Shown: positions 1,660-41,785 of the stretch, one piece after another
How the letters are laid out: every line of letters begins with the position of its first letter
How positions within the stretch are numbered: the first letter of the stretch is position 1
Origin: a virus
Length of the DNA stretch: 48,024 nt
IMG/VR virus record: IMGVR_UViG_3300006162_000020
Coordinates: 1 to 48,024 of that record
Reading direction: 5' to 3' (one strand)
The notes under the pieces: model-generated
The model's input: only the letters and a program-made list of their open reading frames with translations
Databases searched by the model: none
Told to the model about the DNA's origin: nothing
Program-made: the position numbers and the translations under genes

Positions 1660-1662
1660 CGA

Positions 1663-2160: not shown

Positions 2161-2164
2161 GTAG

Positions 2165-2953: not shown

Positions 2954-2963
2954 TGGTACTTTA

Positions 2964-3320: not shown

Positions 3321-3334
3321 GATGAGACTCTAGG

Positions 3335-6300: not shown

Positions 6301-8194
6301 TGTCGCGAGCATCCAGGCACTCACCACATGTATTGACACCGTGTGGCGGGTAAGGGTCGATAACTGGGCCGCGCTCGGCGGATTCAATGTTCTCCCGGTC
6401 GGTACGATCGACGACGGTACGGGCGGTGGTGCCAACCGCAAGATTTCGGTCACGCTCGAGAACAACGGTGCCGGTCTCTTCCGGGCCGGGATGTCGAACG
6501 CGAACGTAAGTCTCAAGACCGGCAACATTCCCGCAGCCTCAATGCCGGTCAACGGGCAGGACATCATCGTCCGTGCCTGGTACCGTTCTGCTGGCGGCGG
6601 TGGTGACAACCACGGCGTCAGCGTCTATAAGGGCGACGGTTCGAACGCCCTGATTGACCCGAACGCGACCGTGCTTGATACGGCGGGCCGTGGCGCGCTG
6701 CCGGGCACAGGCGCGAATGGTCAGGTTGGGCTAAACGTTGCCGCAGGTACAACGGTAACCCGGTCGGAAATCTGTCAGGGTGTTGGGGTGTTCAACACAC
6801 TTAGGGCCGCCGGCTCTGAGAGCGCCAAACCCTCGGTGTCGGACGCAACCTGTCTCTACTACTGCGCGTTTAGCGATGCGACGAGTGGTACTACCCCGAC
6901 AAGCGCGACCGCGCAGGTCGGATCGAACGCAATGGCTCTCCCGGTTGGCCAATACGCATGGACCACCGACACGTCGCCCGGCGCGTGGAACGGCGCGCCG
7001 AACGCCTACACCTGGACATCAAGCCTTTCCGGTATCGGCATAACGGTAGACGGGTCGGGGCATGTCGCAGCGAGTTCTACGGCGTCCGGCACCTCGACCA
7101 TCACGGCGGCACTACAGGGTACGGCGGTCGCCGGTACGGCTCTCGTAACATGCCAGGCCGCGTCAATACCGTCGTCGTTGACTCTTAATCCGACAACGGT
7201 CACGATCAACGGGATTGGTTCGACCACGACGATCACGGCGACGGTCAAGGACCAGTACCTGAACGTGATGACATCGGGGTTCACGCTCAACCCCTTTTCC
7301 CAAACCCCGTCGATTTGTACTGTCACGGGTTCGCCACCACTGGTAGTGACGGCGGTCGCGGGTGGCGTTGGGACCGTTTTTGTGGGTGTCATTGGTACGG
7401 CGCTCAGTCAAATCTGCACAGTTACGGTGAACATCAGCACGCTGTTCAACCAGCCCGGTGGCATGACAACCCAGATCGCCACCGGCAAGATGACGGCCAT
7501 CCCGTCGAACTTCTCAATCTTTTCCCCCTCTAGCCCGACCGCGCAGGGCGAGACAAGCGCCAACCTCACAGTTACTCCGGCCCCGGACACGGGTCTTAGG
7601 ATCAACTACCCCACCAACCTTAGTGGCGGGTGGTCGCCAGTCAGGTTCGCCCCTCCGAACTTCGCGTCAGGGGGCACGCCCCAGGGTACCGGGTATCTCT
7701 ATGCTCGGATGCGGATTCGGTACTCGGCCAACTGGACCTGCTCTACAAACGCTTCAGTCAAGATATACGAGCCCCGTTCCGAAAATCAGGGAAGCGGCGC
7801 GGGGGCAACCAGCAACCCGGTGGTCTTCGGCTATGTGGGCGCTGGCACGCCAACGCGATTCCCGGTCGGCTGGGCCAAGCAGGGGCCGAACGGATTGTTT
7901 GCCAACTACGCACCAGCCTCGCCGAACGCTGGATTTATTATCAGCGATGGCAATTGGCACTATGTCGAAGTGTCAACCACGCCCGAGACTTCGATCGGGG
8001 CCGGTGACGGAGTCATCGACATTTGGGTTGATCAGGTCAACCATTTCCAGCAGACGGGTGTGCAGTTCCTCACTGCCGGCATGACTGTTGGCTGGCCCTC
8101 GATCATCTTCGATCCCACATACGGCGGTGGCACGGCAAGTCCACCTGTCAATATGTACTGGGATTTCGACGACATCTTCATAGCAACCAAGTAA
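3335..8194 (+). CDS. giant multi-domain tail/adhesion protein: Ig-like (BIG2) repeats with a degenerate GH10-like domain
   Basis: A 1619-residue protein with a GTG start. Residues about 50-145 form a BIG2-like Ig domain. Residues about 148-590 follow the glycoside hydrolase 10 (xylanase) fold: GIEGH with His435, ITEFDV with nucleophile-position Glu474, IWGLRD with Trp521, then RPLLFADYF and KPSYYAV. At the acid/base position the usual VNEA-type motif reads LSQGI, so Gln347 replaces Glu. The usual GHxLxWH segment is also lost. An AYNAGTTYTYG...W module of about 50 residues just before it looks like an inserted CBM5/12 domain. Five or six more BIG2-like repeats follow; one appears split by a concanavalin-like insert (about 970-1220). 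The C-terminal 220 residues look like a polysaccharide-lyase or concanavalin-like sandwich. It is probably a receptor- or polysaccharide-binding appendage. Confidence 0.85.
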   Translation: MALLIGSSVQQGTLPSAYTIGGQTTLTVALGKKPTTTLICNVVALTLPLPSQPTTLTLSPASVNITTQNGTQQFVATVLDQYNVPYSGATINWSSSNPNAVSISGTGLATALQLGANVTITASVPSSSASGTATVTTPASGPATITISAGYPNLGAAAAAAGWTIGLANSELLGYEQHPGYQQLYQQLMNGGSILGDTTYREGWISAVTSATTVTTNFKGALDYDLAHAQAIGAQFKAYILDGSAANQWTGLTTYCTSSGTATSLLSAISTAITSHYNTPGTPAAYNAGTTYTYGNTVTFNGFKWTYIAQSNFSGITPALGATTASGEYAWIRTSAGAIHSYVILSQGIAFGSAVANPFTNQLGSPNTWLPTFAQQIYAGDPGAKIEVSGGTFGYDGTGYGTPAQATAVLSLMSAIATAGSVGGASNLTVGIEGHVKCSLLQNTTGTVAQFNLAQMTALFNSITSAGYKYAITEFDVQDDMYIGTGPAGIALRDTAVAQAYTNYLLACDAASAKPDHFMIWGLRDPESGIVVNSVNPRSDGLAQRPLLFADYFGSTAANGTPIPTLKPSYYAVINYLAGKPAPPSSITLNDAYQHQFVAYVKDAWGNQNAAPITTTSNNANIVVVPSIYMSALAGGVSNTTVTVSTTSAPIISASITVSSSPAVLTYLTLSPAVATLTTGTIQLTTSGLDQYGLPNATSPGALSWISANTGVVTVSGTGLVSYAGNGTTYVEAYNQAATGVSTITAQATLVPTISGISPSSTSLTAQGSTVTLVATVVDQFGHPFALTTPLVWTSSDSGHISVVSTGTYTAAASALGTGGNAIITATIAGSSPLQTATATVSTPLAAVTSITLALASGTSINDALNHVITPTVLDQFGGVVSPGILTWASDNAQVTVDQTGTIQALSGSQTAHITATAQGVTGSLTVTTTTPALTAVTLSPASTVLAPGGTVTEVPTPVDQFGNAFNFAGFTAGGAISLTAGNTAYCANVASIQALTTCIDTVWRVRVDNWAALGGFNVLPVGTIDDGTGGGANRKISVTLENNGAGLFRAGMSNANVSLKTGNIPAASMPVNGQDIIVRAWYRSAGGGGDNHGVSVYKGDGSNALIDPNATVLDTAGRGALPGTGANGQVGLNVAAGTTVTRSEICQGVGVFNTLRAAGSESAKPSVSDATCLYYCAFSDATSGTTPTSATAQVGSNAMALPVGQYAWTTDTSPGAWNGAPNAYTWTSSLSGIGITVDGSGHVAASSTASGTSTITAALQGTAVAGTALVTCQAASIPSSLTLNPTTVTINGIGSTTTITATVKDQYLNVMTSGFTLNPFSQTPSICTVTGSPPLVVTAVAGGVGTVFVGVIGTALSQICTVTVNISTLFNQPGGMTTQIATGKMTAIPSNFSIFSPSSPTAQGETSANLTVTPAPDTGLRINYPTNLSGGWSPVRFAPPNFASGGTPQGTGYLYARMRIRYSANWTCSTNASVKIYEPRSENQGSGAGATSNPVVFGYVGAGTPTRFPVGWAKQGPNGLFANYAPASPNAGFIISDGNWHYVEVSTTPETSIGAGDGVIDIWVDQVNHFQQTGVQFLTAGMTVGWPSIIFDPTYGGGTASPPVNMYWDFDDIFIATK

Positions 8195-8195
8195 G

Positions 8196-8603
8196 ATGAG
8201 TCTCATTATCAAGGAGCCGTGGGAGCGGATGGCTGAGGACGACGCCAGAAAACCCTCTCAGGGTGCCGACCGCGATCTCGTGATCCAAGCCAAGACCCCG
8301 AACGGCGACACCATCTGGATACGTCACGACCGAAACGAAATAGGGGTGTCAGTCTGGCGAGGTAACCCTCGCGACCACATGTACTCCTGCTATCAGGCAG
8401 ACAAGTCGGGCTTGACACCCGACGAAGCAAAGGCACTTGCAGAGATGTGCAGATACATCCTGGACGCTGTACCCAAGGGCTGGGAGTTCACCTACTGCAA
8501 GGTGGACAAGGCCATGCAGGCAGTTAAGCAAACCGTAGCCCCGTTCGCCCCCGTCTCTTCCCTCATCTCCTCTCTCTCTCCAAATGGCATACGTACAGAC
8601 TAG
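8196..8603 (+). CDS. hypothetical protein, 135 aa
   Basis: Starts 1 base after the giant tail gene and overlaps the next gene by 20 bases. The product has a charged N-terminus, a central beta segment (DTIWIRHDRNEIGVSVW) and a helical LTPDEAKALAEMCRYIL segment near residue 80. The first half resembles small phage proteins of one beta sheet plus a helix. There is no signal peptide or membrane helix. I do not recognise the family and cannot assign a function. The tight spacing and codon pattern support that it is translated. Confidence 0.7.
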   Translation: MSLIIKEPWERMAEDDARKPSQGADRDLVIQAKTPNGDTIWIRHDRNEIGVSVWRGNPRDHMYSCYQADKSGLTPDEAKALAEMCRYILDAVPKGWEFTYCKVDKAMQAVKQTVAPFAPVSSLISSLSPNGIRTD

Positions 8604-9003
8604 CCCGCCGACCGAAGTCAACGCACACACCGCACTCGTCAACGCCCTCTCGGGCAACGGGTACGTCCTCCAGTCGGGTGGTGACCCGTCGGCCAACTTC
8701 TGGCTGATCGAAGCGATCCAGAACATTGCGACCTTCATCCCGGCATCGGTTACCGGCTCGATCACGCCGGCCGCACTCGCAACCGGCCCGTCGGTCGGTG
8801 AGCAGACCTTCGCCGCGTTCTCGAGCAAGCTCCTGACCACGGACAAGCTCCTGACCACTATCACAGGTGCTCAGACGGCTGCGGTTGCGCTCGTGTACTC
8901 GAGATGTTCGGTCGCCGGTACGCTGGCGCTCACGTTCATCGCGACTGCCGGTACGCCGACCCCGGCCTCCGGTAACCACAACGTAGCGATCATCCGGTCG
9001 TAA
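8584..9003 (+). CDS. putative virion protein, 139 aa
   Basis: The ATG lies inside the end of the preceding gene, in another frame. The 139-residue product has an N-terminal helix-rich part (NAHTALVNALSGNG, then FWLIEAIQNIATF) and a Thr/Ala/Gly-rich C-terminal beta part that ends in NHNVAIIRS. This resembles small trimerisation or tail-associated proteins but no family is certain. Placement immediately before a membrane-anchored coiled-coil gene and the portal supports a virion or assembly role. No Shine-Dalgarno is visible; the leader is CT-rich. Confidence 0.7.
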   Translation: MAYVQTSPPTEVNAHTALVNALSGNGYVLQSGGDPSANFWLIEAIQNIATFIPASVTGSITPAALATGPSVGEQTFAAFSSKLLTTDKLLTTITGAQTAAVALVYSRCSVAGTLALTFIATAGTPTPASGNHNVAIIRS

Positions 9004-9342
9004 GTGGTTCTAATCGCAGTACTTGCCCTCGGTGCGCTAATCGTCTGGCGTACCGAGGCGGTGCTCCGAACAGCCATACCGGTAGTGAGATCGGTTGTCG
9101 AACGGAAACTCGCAGTCGAGGAACGTCTGGCAGCGGTCGAGGAGGCCAAGATCCGTCCCCGGGAGAAGCAGGCCCGGGAGCCGGGGATGCCACCACAACT
9201 ACTACGGATGGCGATGCAGGAGTCTGAACCGTGGGCTAGGCAGGACGCGGTACGGGCTATGTCGGAGCTCGCCGAACTCACGGGTGGTGACTGGGACAAG
9301 GTCCAGCAAAACGCCATTCTCGGAATAACGGACCCAAACTAA
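9004..9342 (+). CDS. small membrane-anchored coiled-coil protein
   Basis: A 112-residue protein with a GTG start directly after the upstream TAA. The first 16 or so residues (VLIAVLALGALIVW) form a single hydrophobic helix with a short N-terminus. An amphipathic, charge-rich helix follows (residues about 25-60, many Glu, Arg, Lys, Ala), then a helical region containing AMQESEPWARQDAVRAMSEL. It ends 1 base before the portal gene. A role in head assembly or host-membrane interaction is possible, but there is no family match that I recognise. Confidence 0.65.
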   Translation: MVLIAVLALGALIVWRTEAVLRTAIPVVRSVVERKLAVEERLAAVEEAKIRPREKQAREPGMPPQLLRMAMQESEPWARQDAVRAMSELAELTGGDWDKVQQNAILGITDPN

Positions 9343-9343
9343 A

Positions 9344-11902
9344 ATGGCGGCTGTACCGTTCAACCCCGACCCACTCGCGCAGGTAGACCCCAAGAAGATA
9401 GGACCTCTTCGGGACGGGGTTATGGGCGACCATTCGGTAAGTCTGGATGGTCTTGACCAGTTGATGGCGGAGGGCCAGAACCCGAGTTCTGAGGATCTGG
9501 CTGTCAGACAGTTGGGGGTACAACCCCAGCCTCCCGCTACCGGGTTCGAGCAACTGACCGGTGCTACACCGAGTGGTCAGGTGACTAGTATGGGTAGTGC
9601 TGGGATGGGTAACGAGCCCGGTACGAGTGCCACTACCGGGATCGGACAGGGACAGGGGCACGGATCGGCTGCGGGCGGGGATTCCGTCACCGGCCATTCC
9701 ATGTACGGGTTGGGCGACGACTCGGGATCGGTACTATCGGGCGGTAGTCTTAGCGACCCCGCTGACCGGAGTGCTATCGCGGCCCTCTACGGCGATGACT
9801 TCCCACTCCTCAAGGACCACCCCACAGAGGTCGATTGGGTATCGTGGGCGCAGCACGCTTGGACTAATTACGGTGCCGGTACCTATGCGATCATCCACAT
9901 GGTCGAGCGGAACCGGTTGTTCAGGAAGGGGCAGCAGTGGATAAGTAGTGTTGGGTTCGGGCCCTGGAGAGAGCCCATGAAGCCGAGGGACGCGGCCCGG
10001 ATCGTGGACAACATGATCTCGCCGGCCCTTGACCAGCGTATCCAACTCATCATGGAGCAGCGCCCGGGCTTTAACTGTGAGCCCGAGTCGCAGGACCATG
10101 ACAAGGTGAAACGGGCCGAGGCGGCACAGGCGGCCTTAGAGTACTCGTGGAAAGAGCAGAAGATGCCCCTCATTGTTCAGGAAGGGGCGTACTGGACTGG
10201 CACGGACGGTGTTTGTTTCCTGGAGCTCTACTGGGACCCGGATGCAGGTCCGTGGGTTGACCCTAAGACGTATGTAGATCCCGAATCAGGCAAGGCGTTA
10301 CTGCCGTGGACACGTCAGTTCCCGGCGGGTGATGTCAGAACCCGTGTGAGACGCATCGAGCAGGTGCGAGTCTCGCCAGAGGCAACCGCCACCAGGCGGC
10401 CCTGGCTTTGGTTGATCCGGGAGGTCATTAGCAAGAACGAAGCGGTCAGGACGTATGGCAAGGATGTGGCCGACGAGGTTGGCACGTTCAATTACGACGA
10501 CAACCTCCAACACATCCCGATCTCGAGGATGGGGTTTATCTACCCCGAAATCGACGAGCTCACGCGGACCCAACAGACGGTCTCGAGGGTCACGGTCTAC
10601 GCAGAGAAGTCGGAGTACATCCCGACCGGGTTCCAAATGACCCTTGTCGCGAACAAGCTCGTGGTCCCGCCGATGCCCCTCTTGATTGGCGAGGTTCCAA
10701 TCGTTCGCTGGACGGATGGTAGTACCGATCCCTCGTTCTTCCCCATAGCGGAAATGAACAAGTGGGTCGATAGCCAGATCCGCCAGAACACGCTCTGGAG
10801 CAAGTGGGTCGAGGGGATCAGAAAGCACTCGGGTATCAATGTGCTCGCGAGAGAGGGGACGATCAGCACCGAGTCCTTCTCGGCCGGCAGCATGAATATC
10901 TGGGGGGTGAAGGGTACGATGCCCCTCCAGGATGTTCTAAAGGAGGTCGGTGGCCACCCGATCAGTCCCGACGTTGTTCAAGCCCTACAGGCGAACCAGA
11001 AACGGTTTGAGGATCTGACCGGCTGGAACGACACGAGCCGTGGGTCGATGACGGCGGGCGACTCTGGCCGAGCGATCCTGGCGATTCGTGAGCAGCTGGA
11101 GAGGGTCTTCGCCCCCATGATCCAGGCGGCATCAATCTCCTTCACGGACTGGGCGAAACTCGTCCTCAAGTTCATGCGCTGGGGATACGACATCCCGAGG
11201 CAGATCGCGCTCGAGGGCCGGAGCCGCCCGGATCTTGGAATGGTCCTAAGCAATCAGGACTTGGACCAGACCTCTCATGTCTGGATCGAGCCTGAGACCC
11301 TGATGCCGATGCCACGGTCCCTAAGGCTCTCGATGCTGGACGACATGTTCCAGAAGCAGTTGGTCTCCCCGCAGGAGTACCGCTCACGGATGCCGTTTGC
11401 ATGGGTCCGGAACATGGACTCGCCCGACGTGCATCACAAGGCACGGGCCGAACGCATAGCTCAGATGATCATCCAGACCGGCAACCCAATGCCCGAGCCC
11501 ATCCTCTGGATGGACGACGAGCACACGCACCAGACGGTCCTGGAAGAAGAGATCCTGCTCCAGCCCGACCAGCCACAGATGGTGCTAGCGGCGGCCTACG
11601 AGCGGTGGATCTTGCTCGCCCAGCAGGGCGCAGCGAAGCAGCAGGCGATGGCTATGGGGATGATGGGTCCGATGCCTGGTACCCCGCCCCCAATGTGGCC
11701 ACCCGACGGTAGCCAGGGCGAGGTACCGGCCCCGAACCAACAGCAGCAACCACTACAGGGCCCAGGCCAGCAGTTGGGTGCCCAGCAGGCCCCGCTAGCA
11801 CTCAACAATCCGCCAGTAGCAGCAGCCCCAATGCAGCAGATCGGGCTCACCTCCGGCGATCAAAACACCCGGCTGTTCGAGCAGGGTCAGCCGATCAAGT
11901 AG
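9344..11902 (+). CDS. portal protein (P22-like)
   Basis: Dodecameric portal through which DNA is packaged and ejected. The 852-residue product has a Gly/Ser-rich disordered N-terminus (about 1-145). The conserved core then begins around HTEV/HAWTNY and includes ERNRLFRKGQQW near 190 and ARIVDNMISP near 220, a hallmark of P22-type portals. It also has a WTGTDGVCFLELYWD segment. The C-terminal 100 residues are Gln/Pro/Met-rich, like the barrel tail of podovirus portals. Length fits the longer portal class of short-tailed phages. Position between terminase and scaffold is canonical. Confidence 0.92.
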   Translation: MAAVPFNPDPLAQVDPKKIGPLRDGVMGDHSVSLDGLDQLMAEGQNPSSEDLAVRQLGVQPQPPATGFEQLTGATPSGQVTSMGSAGMGNEPGTSATTGIGQGQGHGSAAGGDSVTGHSMYGLGDDSGSVLSGGSLSDPADRSAIAALYGDDFPLLKDHPTEVDWVSWAQHAWTNYGAGTYAIIHMVERNRLFRKGQQWISSVGFGPWREPMKPRDAARIVDNMISPALDQRIQLIMEQRPGFNCEPESQDHDKVKRAEAAQAALEYSWKEQKMPLIVQEGAYWTGTDGVCFLELYWDPDAGPWVDPKTYVDPESGKALLPWTRQFPAGDVRTRVRRIEQVRVSPEATATRRPWLWLIREVISKNEAVRTYGKDVADEVGTFNYDDNLQHIPISRMGFIYPEIDELTRTQQTVSRVTVYAEKSEYIPTGFQMTLVANKLVVPPMPLLIGEVPIVRWTDGSTDPSFFPIAEMNKWVDSQIRQNTLWSKWVEGIRKHSGINVLAREGTISTESFSAGSMNIWGVKGTMPLQDVLKEVGGHPISPDVVQALQANQKRFEDLTGWNDTSRGSMTAGDSGRAILAIREQLERVFAPMIQAASISFTDWAKLVLKFMRWGYDIPRQIALEGRSRPDLGMVLSNQDLDQTSHVWIEPETLMPMPRSLRLSMLDDMFQKQLVSPQEYRSRMPFAWVRNMDSPDVHHKARAERIAQMIIQTGNPMPEPILWMDDEHTHQTVLEEEILLQPDQPQMVLAAAYERWILLAQQGAAKQQAMAMGMMGPMPGTPPPMWPPDGSQGEVPAPNQQQQPLQGPGQQLGAQQAPLALNNPPVAAAPMQQIGLTSGDQNTRLFEQGQPIK

Positions 11903-18073: not shown

Positions 18074-20641
18074 ATGCCCAAGAAGAAAGGTGATGCACTT
18101 CCGGCGTCCATGCCGACGGAGGACACAACTGGTGCGACCAGAGGTCTAAACCCCGAGCAGTGGACCCATCTAAACATACTTCGTCGTAGGCATCTGACGA
18201 AGGGCGGGAACCAGATCAACATGGCGGTTCCCGCAACGACCACAGCAGTCGTTGTGAATTTCCTGAGACCCGAGCCCGACTTAGTCTACGGCGTCTCAAT
18301 CGTACCCAACTGGCTCACGGTAGTCTGGTCGGGTGCCAAGACGGTCAACGGCGTCACGATCTACTTCGGGACAGCTGCACCAGCCAACGCCACGATAGAT
18401 GTCCTGACCTTTAGGGACGAGAGCAGCATCCCCTTGAGCGGGACTGCGACTACTGGCGGTGGTGGTGGAGGGGGCGGTGGTGGCCCCGGCCCACAGGGCC
18501 CACAAGGACCTCCGGGTCCGTTCGCCGATACCGACGACCCCTACGAACCGCCGATGGTACCGGGCGGCCAGGGCCCGCAAGGTAACCCCGGCTCGGCCGG
18601 AGCTCCCGGAACCCAGGGCCCTCCGGGTCCGATGTTCTGGACCGACTCGGATGTTCCGGACGACCCTCCGGTCATCCCCGGCAACCCGGGCCCGAGTGGC
18701 AATCCAGGCGCCCCAGGAACGGCCGGCGCTCCAGGCGTCACGTACTTCTTTGAGCCTGAACAGCCCGACGACCCATACCACGTCCCGGGTCAACAGGGCC
18801 CTCAAGGCAACCAGGGCGCACCCGGCTTGCCCGGAAACACGCTCATACTGGATACCGATGTCCCTGATGACGCCATGCCTGTACCGGGCGGCCAGGGGGC
18901 ACAGGGTAACCCAGGGATACAGGGCGCGCCTGGTGTTATAACATTAGTAGACACGGACCCACCCGACGACCCCATGATGGTTCCGGGTGGGCAGGGACCG
19001 CAAGGAAACCCAGGTACTCCAGGTCAGGCTGGCGCGACGTTCCTGTTCGAGCCCGATGCGCCAGACGATCCCTACCATGTTCCGGGGAGCCCGGGAGCTC
19101 AGGGTAATCCCGGGGCCCAAGGGCCACAGGGCCCCATGTACTGGCAGGACGCGGACGTTCCGGACGACCCTGCGGTTATCCCCGGTTCGCCTGGCTCGCA
19201 GGGCAACCCCGGTAGCACAGGAGCCGCTGGCGCACCCGGCGCGATTCTCTATGCCGAGCCCGATGTCCCTGAGGAACCGTTCCATGTCCCCGGCGTTCAG
19301 GGGCCGACAGGGAACCCCGGCGCGGCAGGCACCCCAGCCGCCCTAATCTGGCAAGAGCCGGATGTCCCTGAAGAGCCCTTCCATGTTCCGGGATCTCAGG
19401 GACCGCAGGGAAATCCGGGGACTAGCGGCACCAGCGGTACCTCTGGTATCACGGTCTACGCCGAGCCTGACGTACCGGAAGAGCCCTTCCATGTGCCGGG
19501 TGTCCAGGGGCCCCAGGGTAATCCCGGCAGCACAGGTGGGACGGGTCTGCAGGGACCGATGGGCGCACTCGTGTTCGCGGAACCCGAACAGCCGGATGAC
19601 CCGTATCACGTCCCCGGGGTGCAGGGGCCGCAGGGAAACCCGGGCACCAATGGCACCAACGGTACTGGCGGTGGCATAAGCGGCTACATGATCGGCGAGG
19701 ATGTCACATATGACGAGCCTCAGTACATGTACGCCGACCCGAATTTCAAGCCCGTCACGATTGTCTTTCCGGCGAGCGCATCTACTTACACGCTCAACAG
19801 CGCACCGATTGGCTCGACGTTCGTCAAGGCGCAGGGATTCGCGAGCGGTGCCGGTGGTGGCTCGGGTGCCTGCCAGACCTCGGGTTCGGCGGCAAGCGGT
19901 GGCGCAGGCGGCGCTGGTGGCATGTACAACGAGGCGTGGTTCCCGGTTGCCTCGCTAGTAATGCCTCTCACGATCACGAGTCCGCGGGGCGGTGCTGGTG
20001 GCGCAGGCAAGGGCACAACGGCTCAGGCCGGTGCGAACGGCGCGAACGGCGCGGACGCCAAGATTGTTGACGGCAACAGCAAAACGATCTGGCAAGCTGA
20101 CGGTGGCACGGTAAGCGGTTCGGGCGGTGGCCAAGGCAAACTCGCCGCCAATTCAAGCGGGGGCGTAGCCAAGACTGGAACCAACTCGGGCGGCGGGAAC
20201 CCATCGCAGGGCTCTAACGGCCAAGCGGGCACGAGCGGCGCTGCGGGTACCGTGAACGGTAACGGCTACGGCAGTGCGACAGCCACCTACTCGATGGGCG
20301 GTTCTGGCGGCTCGAGCGCAGGCGGCGTGTCGGTAACCCCTGCCGCATTCGCGGGCGGTGCTGGGATAGCGGGGCCGTATACCCAAGGCGCGCAGACGGG
20401 CGGTACTGCTGGCGCGATCAACGGTGCTGGTGGCGCTAGCCCTACGAACTTCGACGGCTGGTTTGGGCCGGGCGCGGGTGGCGCTGGCGGTGGTTCCTCA
20501 ATCACCGGCAACGGTGGCCAAGGTGCAGCGGGTGCCAAGTACGGCGCAGGCGGAGGTGGCGGTGGCGCGTGTCTTACCGGGTTCACCTCCGGCGCGGGTG
20601 GTAACGGCGGCGATGGCGTTGTTGTAATGCAGTTCACCTAA
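18074..20641 (+). CDS. collagen-like tail fibre with repeated acidic Pro-rich units and Gly-rich tip
   Basis: An 855-residue fibre. Residues 1-125 form a beta-rich attachment domain, followed by ten consecutive Gly. About eleven units of 33-38 residues run to about residue 530. Each has a hydrophobic strand, an acidic element of type EPDVPEEPFHVPG or DVPDDPxxIPG, and four to seven collagen Gly-X-Y triplets such as GPQGNPG. The last 310 residues are extremely Gly/Ala/Ser-rich and end in GDGVVVMQFT, the style of polyglycine receptor-binding tips. Collagen triplets imply a trimer. It follows the propeller, so it is a likely host-binding fibre. Confidence 0.85.
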   Translation: MPKKKGDALPASMPTEDTTGATRGLNPEQWTHLNILRRRHLTKGGNQINMAVPATTTAVVVNFLRPEPDLVYGVSIVPNWLTVVWSGAKTVNGVTIYFGTAAPANATIDVLTFRDESSIPLSGTATTGGGGGGGGGGPGPQGPQGPPGPFADTDDPYEPPMVPGGQGPQGNPGSAGAPGTQGPPGPMFWTDSDVPDDPPVIPGNPGPSGNPGAPGTAGAPGVTYFFEPEQPDDPYHVPGQQGPQGNQGAPGLPGNTLILDTDVPDDAMPVPGGQGAQGNPGIQGAPGVITLVDTDPPDDPMMVPGGQGPQGNPGTPGQAGATFLFEPDAPDDPYHVPGSPGAQGNPGAQGPQGPMYWQDADVPDDPAVIPGSPGSQGNPGSTGAAGAPGAILYAEPDVPEEPFHVPGVQGPTGNPGAAGTPAALIWQEPDVPEEPFHVPGSQGPQGNPGTSGTSGTSGITVYAEPDVPEEPFHVPGVQGPQGNPGSTGGTGLQGPMGALVFAEPEQPDDPYHVPGVQGPQGNPGTNGTNGTGGGISGYMIGEDVTYDEPQYMYADPNFKPVTIVFPASASTYTLNSAPIGSTFVKAQGFASGAGGGSGACQTSGSAASGGAGGAGGMYNEAWFPVASLVMPLTITSPRGGAGGAGKGTTAQAGANGANGADAKIVDGNSKTIWQADGGTVSGSGGGQGKLAANSSGGVAKTGTNSGGGNPSQGSNGQAGTSGAAGTVNGNGYGSATATYSMGGSGGSSAGGVSVTPAAFAGGAGIAGPYTQGAQTGGTAGAINGAGGASPTNFDGWFGPGAGGAGGGSSITGNGGQGAAGAKYGAGGGGGGACLTGFTSGAGGNGGDGVVVMQFT

Positions 20642-27392: not shown

Positions 27393-27545
27393 TCCGCTGT
27401 AGGGGGAATAGATAGCTGGTGTGTGGGCAGGGCCGCTTCCTTCGGGAGGCGGCTTTTGTCGTTCCCCGAATATCCGGTCCCAGTTCTCAGCGAACGACGC
27501 CAGCGAAACGAGCGTCGGACGACGGGCGGAGCCTTTACCGTTCAT
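27285..27545 (-). CDS. small NGKG-family phage protein, last gene of the minus operon
   Basis: An 86-residue frame read leftward. Its N-terminus, MNGKGSARRPT followed by FAENWDRIFG at residues 18-27, matches a widespread family of short phage proteins that begin (M)NGKGxxxRP and contain NWDxIFG. Their function is unknown to me. TAAGGACTG just before the ATG is a good ribosome-binding site. Beyond residue 30 the frame runs through the terminator stem and 108 bases into the holin gene on the opposite strand, so the second half may be less constrained. Confidence 0.65.
   Translation of the reverse strand: MNGKGSARRPTLVSLASFAENWDRIFGERQKPPPEGSGPAHTPAIYSPYSGLPLVLTLNKLAGQTTQGGCEVDGPAGVNDEAPGEG
27432..27457 (+). 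terminator. rho-independent terminator of the virion operon
   Basis: GCCGCTTCC (27432-27440) pairs with GGAGGCGGC (27445-27453) around a TTCG tetraloop, with one G-U pair, followed by TTTT. It closes the rightward operon 40 bases after the last gene and lies within the antisense gene on the other strand. Confidence 0.85.
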
Positions 27546-27569
27546 CAGTCCTTATAACGCCGTCATAGC

Positions 27570-27953
27570 TCATGCGCCCACCGCCTTGAGAGCGGCGCGG
27601 CACACGGCCAAGGGAGCCGTGTCGGCGTATTCGACTAGCGGATGGAGAAGAAAGTCCGCGAACCACCCGTTGTGTGGATTCCTATTGTGCCCAAACAGAA
27701 ATGGACACCCGTCTTTCCGTAGTTTCTCCACAACCAGCCACGCGTCGGCGATGTCGGTGCTGTAGTGGGGCGGTTCGGAGTAGGTATCCGTAACGCCCGG
27801 CGGGAACCCGAATGTCTTCATTGTCGCATTGGGACCTTCGCGATCGACCCACCAATCAGTCCAGCCCATGACCTTCTCAGCGACGAGCGCGTCGAGCGAT
27901 CGACCAGCGGGCATCGTCTCGTCGGCTTCTGGCGTGTTAGTTTGGCTGTTCAT
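27570..27953 (-). CDS. phage ABA-sandwich domain protein
   Basis: A 127-residue protein. The motif RSLDALVAEKVMGW near the N-terminus, a PPHYSTDIADAWLVVEKL strand-helix in the middle and a final ALAVCRAALKA-type helix match the Phage ABA sandwich family, found in many phages and of unknown function. An upstream in-frame ATG adds 4 residues, but the ATG chosen overlaps the methyltransferase stop (ATGA) and has GGGGA at a good spacing, so it is preferred. It is downstream in the same transcription unit. Confidence 0.75.
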   Translation of the reverse strand: MNSQTNTPEADETMPAGRSLDALVAEKVMGWTDWWVDREGPNATMKTFGFPPGVTDTYSEPPHYSTDIADAWLVVEKLRKDGCPFLFGHNRNPHNGWFADFLLHPLVEYADTAPLAVCRAALKAVGA

Positions 27954-28504
27954 TCCTTTCCCCATTGTTCGGCCATTGCGGCCGCGATATTGGCGTCAGT
28001 CCGGCTCCGGTTCTTCCACCTGTCTGGCCCAGGCGATTCGTGATGCACGCGAGGGCGCCGGCCTTCAACGACGTTCGTCGGCACTAGCTTCGACAGGTTC
28101 TTGAGCCAGAGGCAGGTCGCCTTCGTCTCTGGCGTCCCGAACATCCACGGTTGGATGATCTGGTCCGGCTTCCTGATCTTTGTCGAGATCACACTAATCG
28201 GGTTCTCGATCGCGATGCGAGGTATGGGCGCCTTCATCAGCCTCCACACGAAATCAAGGGCTTGGTGTTGTTCGTCCTTCCGGTCCTTGAACCACCGCGC
28301 CCCGCTTACCGCGAGATACGTACATGGCGGGTGGGCAATCATGAGATCCCAGCCTGTTTCGAGATGCTCAAGAACGTCGCCCCTAAGGTGCCACCCCCTT
28401 TTACGCTCTGACGGAAGTAGATCGCACGACCAAGCCTCGTGACCCTTGGCCGCGAACGCATCGCGGACGATACCGGAGAACTCACAAGCGACAAGGACTC
28501 GCAT
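27950..28504 (-). CDS. DNA cytosine methyltransferase-like phage protein
   Basis: A 184-residue Rossmann-like protein: a first strand MRVLVACEFSGIVRDAF, an acidic second-strand end HEAWSCDLLP, and the HPPCTYLAVSG motif with Cys61 in a Pro-Pro-Cys context like the catalytic loop of C5-cytosine methyltransferases. A later IENP resembles the ENV-type motif. It is half the length of a full methyltransferase and has no visible target-recognition domain, so DNA specificity or even activity is uncertain. Start and stop are coupled to the RNA ligase (TAATG) and ABA genes (ATGA). Confidence 0.75.
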   Translation of the reverse strand: MRVLVACEFSGIVRDAFAAKGHEAWSCDLLPSERKRGWHLRGDVLEHLETGWDLMIAHPPCTYLAVSGARWFKDRKDEQHQALDFVWRLMKAPIPRIAIENPISVISTKIRKPDQIIQPWMFGTPETKATCLWLKNLSKLVPTNVVEGRRPRVHHESPGPDRWKNRSRTDANIAAAMAEQWGKE

Positions 28505-29224: not shown

Positions 29225-29637
29225 AGCCCACGCTCCAAGAGTTCGATACACATATTCAGCGCCGCGTTCCAGCCCTGCGACCAAAGTTCGTTAGAGCCTA
29301 GTGGAAACGCATCGCCGGGATAGCGATACTTCCGCCACTCATCGCACTGACGCTTGATTGCGTCGCGCATGCGACGTTCAATCTCGTCATAGGTGCCAGA
29401 AGACCTTCTTGTGTCCCGTATCGCCTCCGCCAATATCCCCACTTTCGGCTTCTTCGCTTCGTCCTCTAGCCGCTCGCATTCGGCCATAGCGTCTTGGATA
29501 GCGTCCTGTAACCACTCCCCGATAAGTGTGATCTGACGCCTACCACCAGGACCGTTCCAGTAAATGAGCTTGTCGCGGGTACTAACCCCGACCTCGTGTT
29601 CGTCCATCCACTTGCCACGTGTTGCCCAGTCAGTCAT
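29221..29637 (-). CDS. hypothetical protein, 138 aa
   Basis: A charged helical protein of 138 residues. There is an initial [16 protein letters not shown] segment, a strand pair KLIYWNGPGGRRQITLIG, then long Glu/Arg/Lys-rich helices and a C-terminal LWSQGWNAALNMCIELLE helix. The last motif (helix with GWNAAL after a basic region) occurs in several short phage proteins of unknown role. It starts inside the end of the repeat gene (4-base overlap). No catalytic motif is visible. Confidence 0.7.
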   Translation of the reverse strand: MTDWATRGKWMDEHEVGVSTRDKLIYWNGPGGRRQITLIGEWLQDAIQDAMAECERLEDEAKKPKVGILAEAIRDTRRSSGTYDEIERRMRDAIKRQCDEWRKYRYPGDAFPLGSNELWSQGWNAALNMCIELLERGL

Positions 29638-31043
29638 GTCTGCACCTCCACGATGTATTCGTCGCCCCTTAGGCCAAAGCTCGCCGCGACCGCGTTACGG
29701 GCTCGCATCTCTTGCGGTTCGCCCAGAATCGGCTGGCCGTCGTCCGACATGCCAAGCAGCGGCCTGCACTCGGGGTTCACCCGTAGCCAGTAGTCCTTGA
29801 AGCTCCCGTCCGGCTCGGGTGTCGAGTTGACGAGTTTGACCATCACGAGCGGTTCATCCTCACCCATGGGCGCCCGGTAGAGCGTACCGTAGTCGCTCGC
29901 ATCCAGGACTTCGGCCTTGATGTCGAGCAGGTACCGGCCAGCCCCGTAGCGCTCGAGCATTACACGCCGCACTTCCATGTTCTCTTCCTTCGTGATCTTC
30001 TCGGCCGTGATCTGCTCCGGATTATCGATGATCCAGGGCTCAACCCGAACGCCATGGACCGCGTAGATGCCCCACCCGTCGCGGTAGCGGATGGCGGGAC
30101 CGGCCTCGGAATGCAACCGCCCACGCTCGTCCCGCTCTAGCCGTTCCGGCCGATCCGTCAGGATAACAGCGCCCTTAAATGGCCACCACCATCCAGCCGA
30201 GTGAGCAACCAGCGCCAGTCCTTCGACCCTTTCGAGGTTGGGCACACCCGCACGCCGGAACGTATCGACCCAAGCAAGCCAGCCGCTCTCGTGCTGGCCG
30301 TAGACAGCGCGAGAGGCCTGATCCCTGACCTGACCCCCGACCTGATCCCTGACCTGAGCCCAGACCTGATCCCTGACCTGAGCCCCGACCTGATCCCTGA
30401 CCTGAGCCCTGACCTGAGCCCAGACCTGAGCCCCGACCTGAGCCCCGACCTGATCCCTGACCTGAGCCCTGACCTGAGCCCAGACCTGAGCCCAGACCTG
30501 AGCCCCGACCTGAGCCCCGACCTGATCCCAGACCTGATCCCTGACCTGATCCCAGACCTGAGCCCAGACCTGATCCCTGACCTGAGCCCCGACCTGAGCC
30601 CAGACCTGAGCCCAGACCTGATCCCCGACCTGAGCCCAGACCTGACGCCCGACCTGATCCCTGACCTGAGCCCAGACCTGACGCCCGACCTGAGCCCAGA
30701 CCTGAGCCCAGACCTGATCCCTGACCTGAGCCCCGACCTGAGCCCTGACCTGATCCCCGACCTGAGCCCAGACCTGATCCCTGACCTGAGCCCCGACCTG
30801 AGTTTTGCCGGTCGCAGATAGTAACGCCGCGCCCAAGCAACCGGCGAACGGAGAGTCTAGCCAGATAACAATCTCCGGCCTAGCTAGACCAGCCGCCTCG
30901 TAGGCGAGCATAGCACCGCGTTCCGCCTCAGCCCGGTCGGCTGGCGCCGTAAACAAGCCCACGGCCAACCACTCATCCCGGATAGCCGGTAGCGCCGCCT
31001 CGATCTCAGGCGGCAATTTCTCTATCTTCTTAGTCGGCGACAT
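29634..31043 (-). CDS. DUF6745-like protein with 40 tandem tetrapeptide repeats
   Basis: A 469-residue protein. Residues about 1-80 form a helical domain ([21 protein letters not shown], later [11 protein letters not shown]). Residues about 83-242 are 40 uninterrupted copies of Val-x-x-Gln ([12 protein letters not shown] and variants), which predicts a continuous amphipathic or solenoid structure. The C-terminal half contains [43 protein letters not shown] and late [19 protein letters not shown], features I know from DUF6745 phage proteins. The start shown follows MSPTKK; a longer frame adds 17 residues within the previous gene. Function unknown. Confidence 0.8.
30318..30797 (-). repeat. 12-bp tandem repeat, 40 units
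   Basis: Plus-strand unit CTGAKCCCNGAC repeated 40 times without a frame break (480 bases exactly). Units differ mainly at positions 5-6 and 9. Because the unit is a multiple of three, several frames on both strands stay open. It lies entirely inside the DUF6745-like gene and encodes the Val-x-x-Gln repeats. Confidence 0.95.
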
Positions 31044-31344
31044 TCCGGATCTCGGCCGGCGTGTACTGGCGCTGGATGATGACCCGACCGACACCCGGCG
31101 TCACCGCAATCGACCCATGCTCCTGGTGGGTGAGCATTGAGAGCGCGTCCACTTTGAGGTAAAGCTCGCCGGGTGCTGCCTCGAGCAGCGCAACGTTCCC
31201 GTCGTCCTCGAACGAGTGGTGATGCCCGGTGACTTCGCCGCGTGCCAGAATCACACGTCCGTTCTCTGCCTTTTGTGCGACCGCGTGGGACGGCGCCTTC
31301 TTGACCGGCACAATGAGTACATCGCCCTGCCTGTACATGTCCAT
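31030..31344 (-). CDS. small conserved phage protein (RQGDVL family), unknown
   Basis: A 104-residue protein that starts MDMYRQGDVLIVPVKKAP, has GRVILARGEVTGHHHSFED in the middle and ends with VIIQRQYTPAEI. A short protein with this RQGDVL...LAxGExTGHxH layout commonly accompanies DUF6745-like genes in phages. It looks like a small beta barrel whose clustered His could bind metal, but its role is unknown. AAAGGAG lies 7 bases before the ATG. Its last 14 bases overlap the repeat gene. Confidence 0.75.
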   Translation of the reverse strand: MDMYRQGDVLIVPVKKAPSHAVAQKAENGRVILARGEVTGHHHSFEDDGNVALLEAAPGELYLKVDALSMLTHQEHGSIAVTPGVGRVIIQRQYTPAEIRNVAD

Positions 31345-35578: not shown

Positions 35579-36316
35579 CTATGGTGAAAGCAAACGGTAT
35601 GTCCCCCCAAACACCGGACTCCACTTGACTTCCGGGCTCTGATAGATCGCCTCGTAGCCCGCAAACACCCCAAGCCTGCCAAACTGGAGTGTACCAGCTG
35701 CGAACGGCGTTATCGTACTATTGGTTCCGATCACCCCAAGCATTATATTGAATAGCCGGGGGTGATAGCCCTGGATCTCTTTCAAGAGGGCTGTGTCCTT
35801 CTTGGCCTCGGCTGTGTAGAGGAGCCGGTAAGTCTCGGCCCTGATCTCACAGTTGGCCCACGCGCCCCGCAAAGCATTCACGTAGCCGTTGCATGCGGTC
35901 GCAACCTCTTGTGCTGTTGGTGCTTGCGTCGAATCCTTGCCCGCGAGTGCTATCGAGTCGTGGACCCAGACGGTATCATGGATGGCCGTTGCCACAGGGA
36001 GGTTGGGCTTTACCGGGACGGCCTGCTCCGCAAGAGCGAGCCGGTGCTGTATATCGGCATACAGCCGTGCGGCGGACTCTAGTTGACTTGCTTTGTCGGT
36101 TGAATCGGCCTCTACGACCTCGAGCGTATGCTGGAGGTTAAGGATCGCCGAGTCTCTGTCAGCCACGGTAGCCTTGGCCTTAGCCAATCGCTCGGCGTCC
36201 AGCTTGCCGGCGTAGGCATACCCACTCCAGAACCCGACAGCCAGGAGAAAGAGAGCCAGGTAGAACTGGGCCGGCAGGGCCTTCAAGAGACCGAGTAGCT
36301 TGGTCAAAATGCTCAC
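35579..36316 (-). CDS. spanin-like membrane coiled-coil protein with beta-rich C-terminus
   Basis: A 245-residue protein with a GTG start that overlaps the endolysin stop (GTGA), the classic endolysin-Rz order. An N-terminal membrane helix (about 14-33, PAQFYLALFLLAVGFWSGYAY) is followed by a coiled coil at about 35-90. A polar region with repeated Asp/Ser/Thr then leads to a C-terminal block of alternating strands (FNIMLGVIGTNSTITPFAAG, FGRLGVFAGYEAIYQ, WSPVFGGTYRLL), unusual for Rz and reminiscent of outer-membrane beta hairpins. It probably links inner and outer membranes in lysis. The longer open frame upstream is not used. Confidence 0.65.
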   Translation of the reverse strand: MSILTKLLGLLKALPAQFYLALFLLAVGFWSGYAYAGKLDAERLAKAKATVADRDSAILNLQHTLEVVEADSTDKASQLESAARLYADIQHRLALAEQAVPVKPNLPVATAIHDTVWVHDSIALAGKDSTQAPTAQEVATACNGYVNALRGAWANCEIRAETYRLLYTAEAKKDTALLKEIQGYHPRLFNIMLGVIGTNSTITPFAAGTLQFGRLGVFAGYEAIYQSPEVKWSPVFGGTYRLLSP

Positions 36317-36837
36317 GATTCCGCCCGCGTTTGGATTGGTGGCACATAACCCAAGATCCCGGGCTGGCCCAACTGGCGGCGCTTGTAATAAACGCCGTCG
36401 CCGGTACGGGTATTGGGCGCTGTGGTAGTATTGCCCTCGGTAGTGTAGAGCCGATTGTCTCCCGGGACCCGACACACGATGCCGCAGTGGTGGGCGTCAG
36501 TACCGCCATCGAAGTTGTAGAGGACAACGTCACCGGCGATCGGGCTAGTGGTCTTGAAGGTCCCCTTGGCCTTAGCCTGCTCAAGCCAAGTCCCACAAGC
36601 CCCGGCATCTGAACCCGGCACCCAAGCCCCGGCCAGCTTGTTCACCCACGACACAAACGCGGCGCACCAGGATTCGCCCAACGGTGACCCTACGGCATTC
36701 ATCATCTGGTCGATCATGGGGGAGCGGTTGGAGCCGCTGGGGGTCTCAACCACCCCAATCAGCGCCATCGCGTTCTGGACCACGGCGATCCTGAGGTCGG
36801 ACGTGTCCTGGGTTGACAACCAGGGAGCTATAATCAT
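36313..36837 (-). CDS. endolysin, CHAP/NlpC-P60-like cysteine hydrolase
   Basis: A 174-residue cell-wall hydrolase. GESWCAAFVSWVNKL places the catalytic Cys at 58, AHHCGIV supplies the His (116 or 117), and YTTEGNT gives the polar third residue: the CHAP-type amidase/endopeptidase triad. It has no signal peptide or separate binding domain, so it relies on a holin. The first 40 residues are a helical lead (RIAVVQNAMALIGVVETPSGSN). The ATG overlaps the stop of a 15-codon leader that has a strong ribosome-binding site. A longer frame upstream is rejected because it overlaps that leader and has low complexity. Confidence 0.85.
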   Translation of the reverse strand: MIIAPWLSTQDTSDLRIAVVQNAMALIGVVETPSGSNRSPMIDQMMNAVGSPLGESWCAAFVSWVNKLAGAWVPGSDAGACGTWLEQAKAKGTFKTTSPIAGDVVLYNFDGGTDAHHCGIVCRVPGDNRLYTTEGNTTTAPNTRTGDGVYYKRRQLGQPGILGYVPPIQTRAES

Positions 36838-36881
36838 CGTCCGACTGGCACCAGTCCGCACTCCATCCGATTCTCGCTCAT
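36834..36881 (-). CDS. 15-aa leader ORF coupled to the endolysin
   Basis: ATG preceded by GGGAGGG at good spacing; 15 codons, then TGA overlapping the endolysin ATG (ATGA). The endolysin itself has no clear ribosome-binding site, so ribosomes finishing this leader may reinitiate there. A short coupling peptide rather than a functional product. Confidence 0.45.
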   Translation of the reverse strand: MSENRMECGLVPVGR

Positions 36882-36902
36882 AACACCCTCCCGGGTTAGT
36901 CC

Positions 36903-37823
36903 TTAGGGTTGTTCGGTTGTTCCTGCGAATTGACGCTCGGCCAACTGCTGCTTGTACCACTCCGCGAGTCCCGCGTTCACGCCTCGTCTGATCTTGGGCC
37001 ATGCGTGCGCCCAGAGCGCGTCCCGAATCATCCCGGCGCACTCCTCCTCGATGTCCCTGACCGTCTCCACCATGAGAGCCCCTATGTCCTTGGGGCTGTC
37101 CGTGATGACGCCGGCCTCCGTCAAGTGCTGCACGGCCTTGGCCCATCTAGCCGGGGTCCTCAGCTGGATGATGAGGGCGTCGTGAATGTCCCGGTTGGTG
37201 GGGTTTGCCTTCCGCCATTCCCCCTTATGAACCTCCTTGAACGCCTCCGAGACAAACTTCCCCATGAGACACTTTTTGTCGCTCCCGAAGCGTTTGTAGT
37301 TCTTGATGACCACCCCTTCCACCTTCTGACCGCCGAGACAGGACTCCCGGTTAAGCAGGTCGTTGAGCATCCCCAAGTTGTCCAGCTTCCCCTCGACCAT
37401 GGTCGGCACCATCTCGAGCCCCAAGACCTCGGACTCTTTAGCGATCCCCCGGGGCCTGGCGTAGTCCTCATAGCCCGCGTCCACGTCGAACAGAATCAGA
37501 TGGCTGGTCGGTATTCGGTCATAGGCCAGGACGTTGTGCTTGGGCTTCTGTAGATACTCACAGCGGTAGGTATAGCCAGGGACCATCCGGTCTTTGAGGG
37601 AGAGGACAACATCCACAGCAGCCTTGAACATCTTTTCCGGCGCATCGGGGACGATCACCGACCCCTTGGACCGTATTTGGATCTCACCATCTGGCGTGAG
37701 CCGGAAAGAGAACTGCGATCCGTCCACCTTCTCCTGCACCACAACGTCATCGTATAGCAGTTCTGCTATGTCTGGGTGCCCAAGAGCGTAGACCTTGGGA
37801 TAGCCCCTGATCTCGTCTGTCAT
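36903..37823 (-). CDS. RNA ligase, copy 2
   Basis: A 306-residue nucleotidyltransferase. Motif I is EKVDGSQ at 31-37 with Lys32 for adenylation, motif III-like RCEYLQKPKH at 87-96, motif IV EGVVIKN at 169-175 and motif V LMGKFVSE at 186-193. A C-terminal helical domain of about 110 residues follows, with many charged residues. It is longer than and clearly distinct from the other ligase in this operon. AGGGA precedes the ATG, which overlaps the upstream stop (ATGA). It likely seals nicked or cleaved RNA; the exact substrate is unknown. Confidence 0.88.
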   Translation of the reverse strand: MTDEIRGYPKVYALGHPDIAELLYDDVVVQEKVDGSQFSFRLTPDGEIQIRSKGSVIVPDAPEKMFKAAVDVVLSLKDRMVPGYTYRCEYLQKPKHNVLAYDRIPTSHLILFDVDAGYEDYARPRGIAKESEVLGLEMVPTMVEGKLDNLGMLNDLLNRESCLGGQKVEGVVIKNYKRFGSDKKCLMGKFVSEAFKEVHKGEWRKANPTNRDIHDALIIQLRTPARWAKAVQHLTEAGVITDSPKDIGALMVETVRDIEEECAGMIRDALWAHAWPKIRRGVNAGLAEWYKQQLAERQFAGTTEQP

Positions 37824-41294: not shown

Positions 41295-41573
41295 ATGGGG
41301 AACTTCACCAATTCGATTCTGGGCCCCGGCAACTGGTCTTGGGGTGGTGGTAACTGGGGTGGCGCTGGCGGTGGTGTCGTCACCCTCGGCAGCTACGGTC
41401 CATCTGGAGCGCAGGGGCTACAGGGGGCCAACATGATGAGTAATCCGTTCATGGGTGATCTGTACCACGCGCCAAAGATCCGTATCGACTCCGCGCCCCC
41501 CGAGAGCGACAACATGACCTGGCTGGAAGATCGCATCAACGAAATCAGAGCGAGGGACCTGTTCAAATGCTAA
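41295..41573 (+). CDS. Gly/Trp-rich small protein, 92 aa
   Basis: Residues 1-50 are Gly/Asn/Trp-rich (GPGNWSWGGGNWGGAGGG) and disordered. The C-terminal 40 residues are a charged helix-turn part (SDNMTWLEDRINEIRARDLFKC). Starts 3 bases after the coiled-coil gene and overlaps the lipoprotein gene by 7 bases. The pattern of a Gly-rich head with a short helical tail recalls minor virion or fibre-tip proteins, but position argues for an early accessory protein. Unknown function. Confidence 0.55.
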   Translation: MGNFTNSILGPGNWSWGGGNWGGAGGGVVTLGSYGPSGAQGLQGANMMSNPFMGDLYHAPKIRIDSAPPESDNMTWLEDRINEIRARDLFKC

Positions 41574-41785
41574 AGAAGAGCGATGCGGGGCTGTTCGTGG
41601 GGGCCATTGTGGCCACGGCCCTACTACTCTCGGTATTCGGATGTGAAGACGACCGCACCAAGACGATCGTGGGTCCGGTTCGCTGGGATACGCTTAGGGT
41701 CTCTGTCCCGGATACGATCCCGGGCAAGCCCGATACCGTCTACGTCGATAGGGACTCGGCGAAGGACCATCACCACGATCGGTAG
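41567..41785 (+). CDS. small lipoprotein, outer-membrane spanin (Rz1-like) candidate
   Basis: A 72-residue precursor with a Lys-Lys start, a hydrophobic signal (GLFVGAIVATALLLSVFGC) and a lipobox ending at Cys26 with Glu at +2 and Asp at +3. The mature part is about 47 residues, Pro/Asp/Thr-rich (DTIPGKPDTVYVDRD), like short o-spanins or entry-exclusion lipoproteins. It is not next to the endolysin, so pairing with the spanin-like protein is inference; superinfection exclusion is the alternative. Confidence 0.6.
   Translation: MLKKSDAGLFVGAIVATALLLSVFGCEDDRTKTIVGPVRWDTLRVSVPDTIPGKPDTVYVDRDSAKDHHHDR

Follow-up and report, generated by a model that had tools for sequence, protein, structure and literature searches.

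How could a phage protein that occupies the place of a spanin reach the outer membrane when neither the protein itself nor a gene beside it provides a lipoprotein? This question is raised by P0001, a protein encoded directly after the endolysin in an IMG/VR virus record (IMGVR_UViG_3300006162_000020; 60% GC), which was analyzed over the whole stretch of 48,024 nucleotides, hereafter the window. In the portions of PMC6139136 drawn on here, the described spanin types reach the outer membrane via a lipoprotein, no spanin was found in 91 of 677 phages, and an outer membrane protein (OMP) is considered as something that could serve as an o-spanin. The original prediction for P0001 was a single-protein spanin of a new type, with a membrane helix, a coiled coil, and an outer-membrane-like beta end.

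The position of the gene is that of an i-spanin, in a lysis cassette and beside an endolysin (Table 1). The start of P0001 and the stop of the endolysin share the sequence GTGA, as originally described, with the GTG of P0001 lying on the TGA of the CHAP endolysin, and GGCGGA stands just upstream of this GTG. The endolysin start at 36837 was selected by us, the reading frame being open to 37146; a 193-residue version (36313-36894) matched Pfam CHAP (E 4.7e-10) and a PHROG endolysin (1.6e-20). Directly upstream of the endolysin, 36903-37823 on the minus strand encodes an RNA ligase (Pfam RNA_ligase, 2e-11). Elsewhere in the window, the product of 29634-31094 (minus strand) has long repeats of a type written with 14 protein letters (not shown), the opposite strand being also open as SPDLIPDL repeats, and 18074-20641 (plus strand) encodes a large protein, perhaps a tail fiber, that has Gly-Pro repeats resembling collagen and is rich in Gly at its end.

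Table 1. Coordinates of P0001, its parts, and the genes discussed with it
Feature	Positions in window	Strand	Basis or remark
P0001, spanin-like protein, 245 aa	36316-35579	minus	GTG start, TAG stop
Endolysin (CHAP), 174 aa from selected ATG	36313..36837	minus	TGA stop overlaps P0001 GTG
Metallophosphoesterase, directly downstream of P0001	34727..35578	minus	Pfam Metallophos 2.9e-6
Membrane helix of P0001, ~residues 16-36	36209..36271	minus	Hydropathy and helix in single-sequence model
Predicted helical periplasmic stalk, residues 37-100	36017..36208	minus	Sequence; low-confidence model
HDTVWVHDSI, D[TS][VIL] motif	35951..35980	minus	Motif repeated in periplasmic part of other phages' spanin-like proteins
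C-terminal beta-like end, residues 187-245	35582..35758	minus	Composition; strands by eye
Lipobox ORF, 72 aa, LSVFGC; possible unlinked o-spanin	41567..41785	plus	Six-frame lipobox scan

The topology of P0001 likewise resembles that of an i-spanin, with a single hydrophobic segment at the N-terminus (19-residue Kyte-Doolittle maximum, 1.82) that is helical in a single-sequence AlphaFold2 model (pLDDT of ~80 for residues 1-20 and 63 for residues 21-30) and the remainder predicted to be periplasmic. The middle of the protein is helical in the same model at low confidence (mean pLDDT 45) and was not singled out by a crude heptad scan; a coiled coil is plausible there. The motif D[TS][VIL] occurs twice in P0001 and one to five times in each of the 26 DUF6808-type proteins described below, against a background of ~0.18 per 200 residues in the six-frame ORFs of the window of at least 100 aa. 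An N-terminal lipobox was not found in P0001, in which the first Cys is residue 142 (the second and last is residue 156). The last 58 residues contain 5 charged residues, 9 aromatic residues, and 8 Gly. Among 59 ORFs of the window (P0001 included), seven tails had at most 5 charges and three had at least 9 aromatics, and P0001 alone combined both, in a comparison that is descriptive, as its cut-offs are P0001's own values. Four strands were placed by eye in this end (188-197, 201-212, 215-226, and 231-243). The single-sequence model contained strands at 231-235 and 239-244 only, at low confidence, and, with its pLDDT of 45, it was dropped as structure evidence. Strand alternation, measured as hydrophobic moment, was not above chance, with ~60% of 1000 shuffles scoring as high. 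Within the last 60 residues, hydrophobicity stays below that of a membrane helix (19-residue maximum, 1.17), and the protein finishes in -RLLSP, with Pro last and no terminal aromatic residue. The original observation was confirmed as a whole, the membrane helix being upheld by hydropathy and model and the unusual tail by its charge-poor, aromatic-rich composition; two of its points, the coiled coil and the alternation of strands, were not borne out.

Sequence searches yielded no direct relatives of P0001 in phages and nothing useful in Pfam or PHROGs; the only matches among PDB sequences were BCL-xL/MCL-1 inhibitor or binder proteins (E ~0.9). A scan that needs near-exact peptides returned 9 pattern stretches in viral contigs and 35 in genome contigs, none of them confirmed. 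The neighboring genes were used as a second route. Through the endolysin, two distant loci were reached, where no P0001-like neighbor was seen, and by tblastn it matched Streptomyces phage Rowa only, in two records. The terminase led only to IMGVR_UViG_3300027911_000046, which is identical to window positions 1-11656 over the compared part and is a second record of the same virus; in ctjLE16, the nearest phage by terminase, CHAP is followed directly by the phosphoesterase with no gene between. The phosphoesterase led to 80 loci, in whose ORFs blastp with P0001, the endolysin, and the lipoprotein of Table 1 found nothing at E 0.1, and the ORFs upstream of the phosphoesterase were inspected in eight. 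Of these eight, only L248 (phosphoesterase 41% over residues 23-137) has an endolysin together with a protein bearing an N-terminal helix, without a beta end; there, Amidase_2 is followed by this protein, which has 165 residues and contains DTV and DTI motifs, and then by the phosphoesterase. Since the position is kept without the beta end, L248 favors a spanin slot and disfavors a beta end conserved in the lineage. The closest locus by phosphoesterase, L240 (51%), carries a different 476-residue ORF upstream and no endolysin-adjacent P0001-like gene in the 1.6 kb upstream of the phosphoesterase. Because P0001 had no sequence relatives, its architecture was sought beside other endolysins.

Two such genes were found in the Croceibacter phages P2559S and P2559Y, both listed as spanin-less in the consulted portions of PMC6139136. 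The gene after the amidase of P2559Y (P2559Y_0023) encodes an N-terminal membrane helix, the motif HDTIYIDR, and a four-strand-like end; a Cys follows the helix in an unusual context (LFKSC), and a scan of the 43,153-base genome detected no lipobox ORF. In P2559S, the ORF at 27508-28065, annotated only in part (gp30) and overlapping the i-spanin-like gp29, starts like a signal peptide, continues with a helical stretch, and finishes in a beta end whose last residue is Trp; it has no lipobox. It is possibly a beta-anchored o-spanin, and P2559S also has a lipoprotein gene, gp34. Through an amidase alignment, 80 IMG/VR loci were reached, many of which end early at contig ends; by inspection, beta-ended proteins adjacent to the endolysin were present in three of them (L059, L076, and L092), and other loci had u-spanins of the ordinary kind, in which a lipobox is combined with a helix at the C-terminus (e.g., L040). 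A protein of B124-14 that was initially taken as beta-ended is DUF6549, with a lipoprotein ~1 kb off, and looks like part of an ordinary pair. A lipobox scan of 11 analogue contigs gave no candidate in G006 and G009, candidates outside longer ORFs in G001 (66 aa), G003 (162 aa, overlapped by a 120-aa ORF), G005 (69 aa), and G022 (87 and 178 aa); the other candidates lie inside longer ORFs (among them one of 40 aa in G004 and one of 444 aa within a 450-aa ORF in G026).

Other lysis-region proteins were observed along the way. Directly upstream of an amidase endolysin, L074 encodes (2388-2951) a 187-residue signal-peptide protein that resembles an entire small outer membrane barrel and may be an OMP employed in lysis. 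Spanin-like proteins whose N-terminus is helical and which lack a usual lipobox lie at or near the endolysin in L036, L041, L042 (153 aa), and L021 (5425-6072); their C-terminus is short, Gly-rich, and hydrophobic (e.g., RRFIAGFGVGFATGLIVPRIR). According to the portions of PMC12596118 that were available, Bacteroidetes phages exclusively use u-spanins, and u-spanin candidates without a lipobox or membrane segment were filtered out; the available portions of PMC8776804 report u-spanins annotated in Cellulophaga phages.

The protein of L092 belongs to a family of 77 loci in IMG/VR viral contigs (its own contig included), of which 74 were recovered as ORFs, 70 at full length, and 57 distinct sequences were used; tblastn with L092 against phages gave no match. 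An endolysin-like gene lies upstream in 34 of the 64 loci that have at least 600 upstream bases, within 110 nt in 33 of these, as judged with a query set that included enzymes from the family's own loci, which are not independent. Thirty of the enzymes are M15 or Amidase_2, and four are DUF5675, an endolysin by position only; the query set recognized no endolysin in the other 30 of 64, and a holin was found in 18 loci. At L158, a DUF5675 protein (2455-2910; Pfam 3.9e-27), with BLAST relatives in L115, L156, and L157, stands between the holin and the beta-ended protein, a slot that suggests DUF5675 to be a lysis enzyme.

In an AlphaFold2 model built from the 57 sequences, residues 2-29 of L092 form a membrane helix, and the C-terminal part contains four strands, each 9 to 13 residues long (143-155, 161-173, 176-184, and 188-196; block pLDDT 73-80), with a pTM of only 0.27. 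Averaged over the family, alternation was matched or surpassed in only 6 of 2000 shuffles. Conservation is higher on the polar, Gly-rich face of the module (entropy 0.77) than on the hydrophobic face (1.10; permutation p 0.049), which fits a hydrophobic face meeting lipid. Fold matches of the model (Foldseek and VIA) include Hia, AtaA, EspP in BAM, CarO, TolC/CusC, and the TamAB hybrid barrel, and 16 of 50 VIA rows, judged by title, describe membrane beta-barrels, including a designed one. The autotransporter anchors Hia and AtaA were matched at Foldseek E values of 0.8-1.6 and VIA Z scores of 3.9-4.7; over the whole search, no Foldseek E was below 0.2, no Z reached 6, and the first VIA row was a methyltransferase. 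The modeled resemblance to solved outer membrane proteins, weak and mixed with unrelated folds, gives no more than a hint. Within 1.5 kb, as far as sequence was available, no lipobox candidate was present in 67 of the 74 loci; four of the seven candidates were antisense and three plausible, namely, those ~1.3 kb upstream of the beta-ended gene in L124 and L125 and a lipoprotein ORF with a DTL motif ~0.9 kb downstream in L142 (4494-4808), which is a possible partner. The lipoprotein-free state near the analogues is a trend, not a rule. Moreover, every family sequence used (57/57) has a Cys directly behind the helix, in a Lys/Arg-small context that is not the usual lipobox, and lipid attachment is possible there and at the corresponding Cys of P2559Y.

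The best viral fold match of L092 was a DUF6808 protein (E 1.2e-5; TM-score 0.27), and hhalign aligned L092 with the DUF6808-type profile at a probability of 96 (E 3e-9) over 35 columns covering the first two strands. DUF6808-type proteins begin with a helix, carry D-T-V repeats, and close with a hairpin. The type was represented by 29 loci, 27 of them as ORFs, and its alignment (A5) has 26 rows, two of the 27 having been omitted (one identical, one with an unclear start) and L176 added; membership in PF20647 was tested for L174, L175, L176, and L178, and the remaining proteins are BLAST relatives. Of the 26 proteins, 25 terminate in Phe or Trp (21 of 22 when identical ends are counted once), and one ends in Pro. 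A terminal aromatic residue is a classical signature of outer membrane barrel proteins. With a small set of queries, blastp recognized an endolysin-like or holin gene at 12 of the 29 loci. In L188, L194, L195, L201, and L202, the endolysin and the first possible start share 4 to 8 nt; at other loci, the endolysin is up to 1.7 kb away. VIAC or AIAC, a lipobox-like sequence, lies inside the N-terminal helix in six of the 26 A5 rows. Lipobox candidates occur within 1.5 kb at 8 of 27 loci and, in seven of these, are the DUF6808-type protein itself (VIAC/AIAC). In L187, two lipoproteins (2279-2791 and 2813-3289) are encoded just upstream of the DUF6808-type gene and are possible partners. A genome scan with a DUF6808 protein gave 91 stretches and no confirmed relative; a literature search on the word DUF6808 had no match, and the titles and abstract beginnings retrieved on spanins described no beta-anchored spanin.

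We then compared P0001 with both families. Against the L092 family (alignment A2), hhalign gave a probability of 1.3; against A5, it gave a probability of 6.2 (E 0.006), and when the tail was compared with A5, 40 of 600 shuffled tails scored as high. The alignment with A5 runs collinearly through 64 columns up to the end, pairing GYHPRL with GYxPxL, RLG..AGY with RWG..AGYG, and GGTYRLL with GVSYNLF. A hairpin HMM scored P0001 no better than shuffles (1019/1945 as high), and PF20647 did not match P0001 at E values up to 10 (HMMER, filters on); a six-frame PF20647 search of the window found no match, and 14 control genomes likewise gave none. The Phe or Trp that terminates DUF6808-type proteins is absent from P0001. 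As the homology tests were not significant and the tail ends in Pro, P0001 is not filed as a member of either family but as a protein that would work like the L092 and DUF6808-type proteins.

Given its position, its topology, and these analogues, P0001 probably has a spanin-type role. That its C-terminal strands directly engage the outer membrane, as suggested by analogy, is a serious possibility to which we give somewhat less than an even chance, and our preferred reading, held to the same degree, is that P0001 may be an outer-membrane-disrupting spanin that reaches that membrane by beta strands instead of a lipoprotein. The outer-membrane beta end of the original prediction thus draws its support from the analogues, namely, the alternation in L092, the terminal Phe or Trp of DUF6808, and the lipobox-free loci of the L092 family, with architecture being the only support from P0001 itself. 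In this mechanism, P0001 would keep its N-terminus in the inner membrane, pass through the peptidoglycan with its helical stalk and D-T-V linker, and insert its C-terminal strands in the outer membrane or have them captured there, either by forming an oligomeric barrel to which each chain contributes four strands or by being held in an Omp85 barrel (BAM, for example); the four-strand end suggests the former, and the two-strand hairpin of DUF6808 suggests capture by a barrel or BAM. Removal of the wall by the endolysin would free the trapped links, and the two membranes would be pulled together, as in the accepted spanin model.

The main competing explanation is a classical two-component spanin with unlinked genes, in which P0001 is the i-spanin and its soluble C-terminal domain docks on the lipoprotein encoded at 41567 as the o-spanin. 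A six-frame lipobox scan detected this ORF alone in the window and no embedded, overlapping, or adjacent o-spanin lipoprotein for P0001 (the scan found three of four positive control loci, missing L031). The separate, distant lipoprotein of the original prediction is thereby confirmed; given its existence, the single-protein spanin of that prediction is a possibility only. The lipoprotein is short, with four prolines after the lipobox, and its PDTVYVDRDS is of the same motif type as HDTVWVHDS in P0001, which keeps a two-component system a live alternative. However, it lies 5.2 kb from P0001 on the opposite strand, in a run of plus-strand ORFs; most analogue loci have no lipobox ORF near the beta-ended gene; and a charge-poor, aromatic-rich end would be unusual in a soluble domain. 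In the consulted portions of PMC6139136, ~1 kb is the extreme for spanin pairs, and pairs beyond it would be unidentifiable by its standards, a point in favor of this explanation; a pair formed with the 41567 lipoprotein would thus be wider than that extreme. We consider the two-component explanation possible, though somewhat less probable than direct engagement of the outer membrane by the strands.

Two further explanations appear improbable to us. P0001 may be secreted as an o-spanin-like coiled-coil protein anchored only by an outer membrane beta end, since its membrane helix ends in AYA-G, where a signal peptide could be cleaved and which presumably fits a signal peptidase I site, and the P2559S ORF at 27508-28065 combines a comparable start and end beside an i-spanin-like gene. 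In contrast to P2559S, no separate i-spanin candidate was seen beside P0001, and the other analogues are as a rule anchored by their N-terminus. Alternatively, P0001 may not be a lysis protein at all, being instead an envelope or superinfection-exclusion protein that follows the endolysin by chance; this would agree with its having no homologue of known function, but it is at odds with the overlap with the endolysin and with the recurrence of the architecture after endolysins of unrelated classes, and we regard it as no likelier than secretion.

Returning to the beta-strand reading, we tentatively suggest, with more doubt than for P0001 itself, that beta-anchored spanins may form a third spanin architecture in several phage lineages. 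Such a protein would run from a helix in the inner membrane through a D-T-V linker or helical stalk to a C-terminal module, either a beta hairpin or four strands, that ends like an OMP; in the outer membrane, this module would insert as an oligomeric barrel or be taken up by an Omp85 machine of the host, for instance BAM. Examples would be P2559Y_0023, P0001, DUF6808, and the L092 family. If true, such spanins would account for some phages now called spanin-less and could fill part of the gap of 91 in 677, and they could give a function to DUF6808 and to the unnamed family of 77 IMG/VR loci. A direct grip on the outer membrane without a lipid-anchored partner would represent a previously undescribed mode of bursting Gram-negative cells and would offer a simple genetic test of the need for a lipid anchor in membrane fusion. 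Should the strands rely on BAM, this grip would also give phages access to a drug-relevant machine.

Among known systems, TamB-type proteins have an inner-membrane helix at one end and C-terminal strands that join an Omp85 barrel at the outer membrane. The L092 model matched VIA row 9xdc_B ("TamAB hybrid barrel state"; the chain was taken as TamB from its residue numbers) weakly, at Z 4.6; unlike P0001, TamB is a host protein about five times longer and not a lysis protein. Trimeric autotransporter anchors of the Hia, AtaA, and YadA type have a stalk followed by four strands per chain, as P0001 and L092 would, and their weak fold matches concern the analogue L092, not P0001, which differs in having no Pfam anchor match and a probable inner-membrane helix at its start. 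DUF6808 (PF20647, no function given) shares with P0001 the N-terminal membrane helix, D-T-V repeats, C-terminal strands rich in hydrophobic, Gly, and aromatic residues, and, in several loci, the place after an endolysin; there is no significant sequence match, and DUF6808 mostly has a two-strand hairpin ending in Phe or Trp, whereas the end of P0001 is longer and finishes in -LLSP. Like i-spanins of the lambda Rz type, P0001 has an N-terminal inner-membrane anchor, a probable helical stalk, and a gene after the endolysin, but no linked or embedded lipoprotein was detected and its beta-like end is longer. With u-spanins of the T1 gp11 type, P0001 shares the proposal that one protein bridges both membranes, in the reverse arrangement: it has neither a lipobox nor a C-terminal helical anchor, and a beta end would face the outer membrane.
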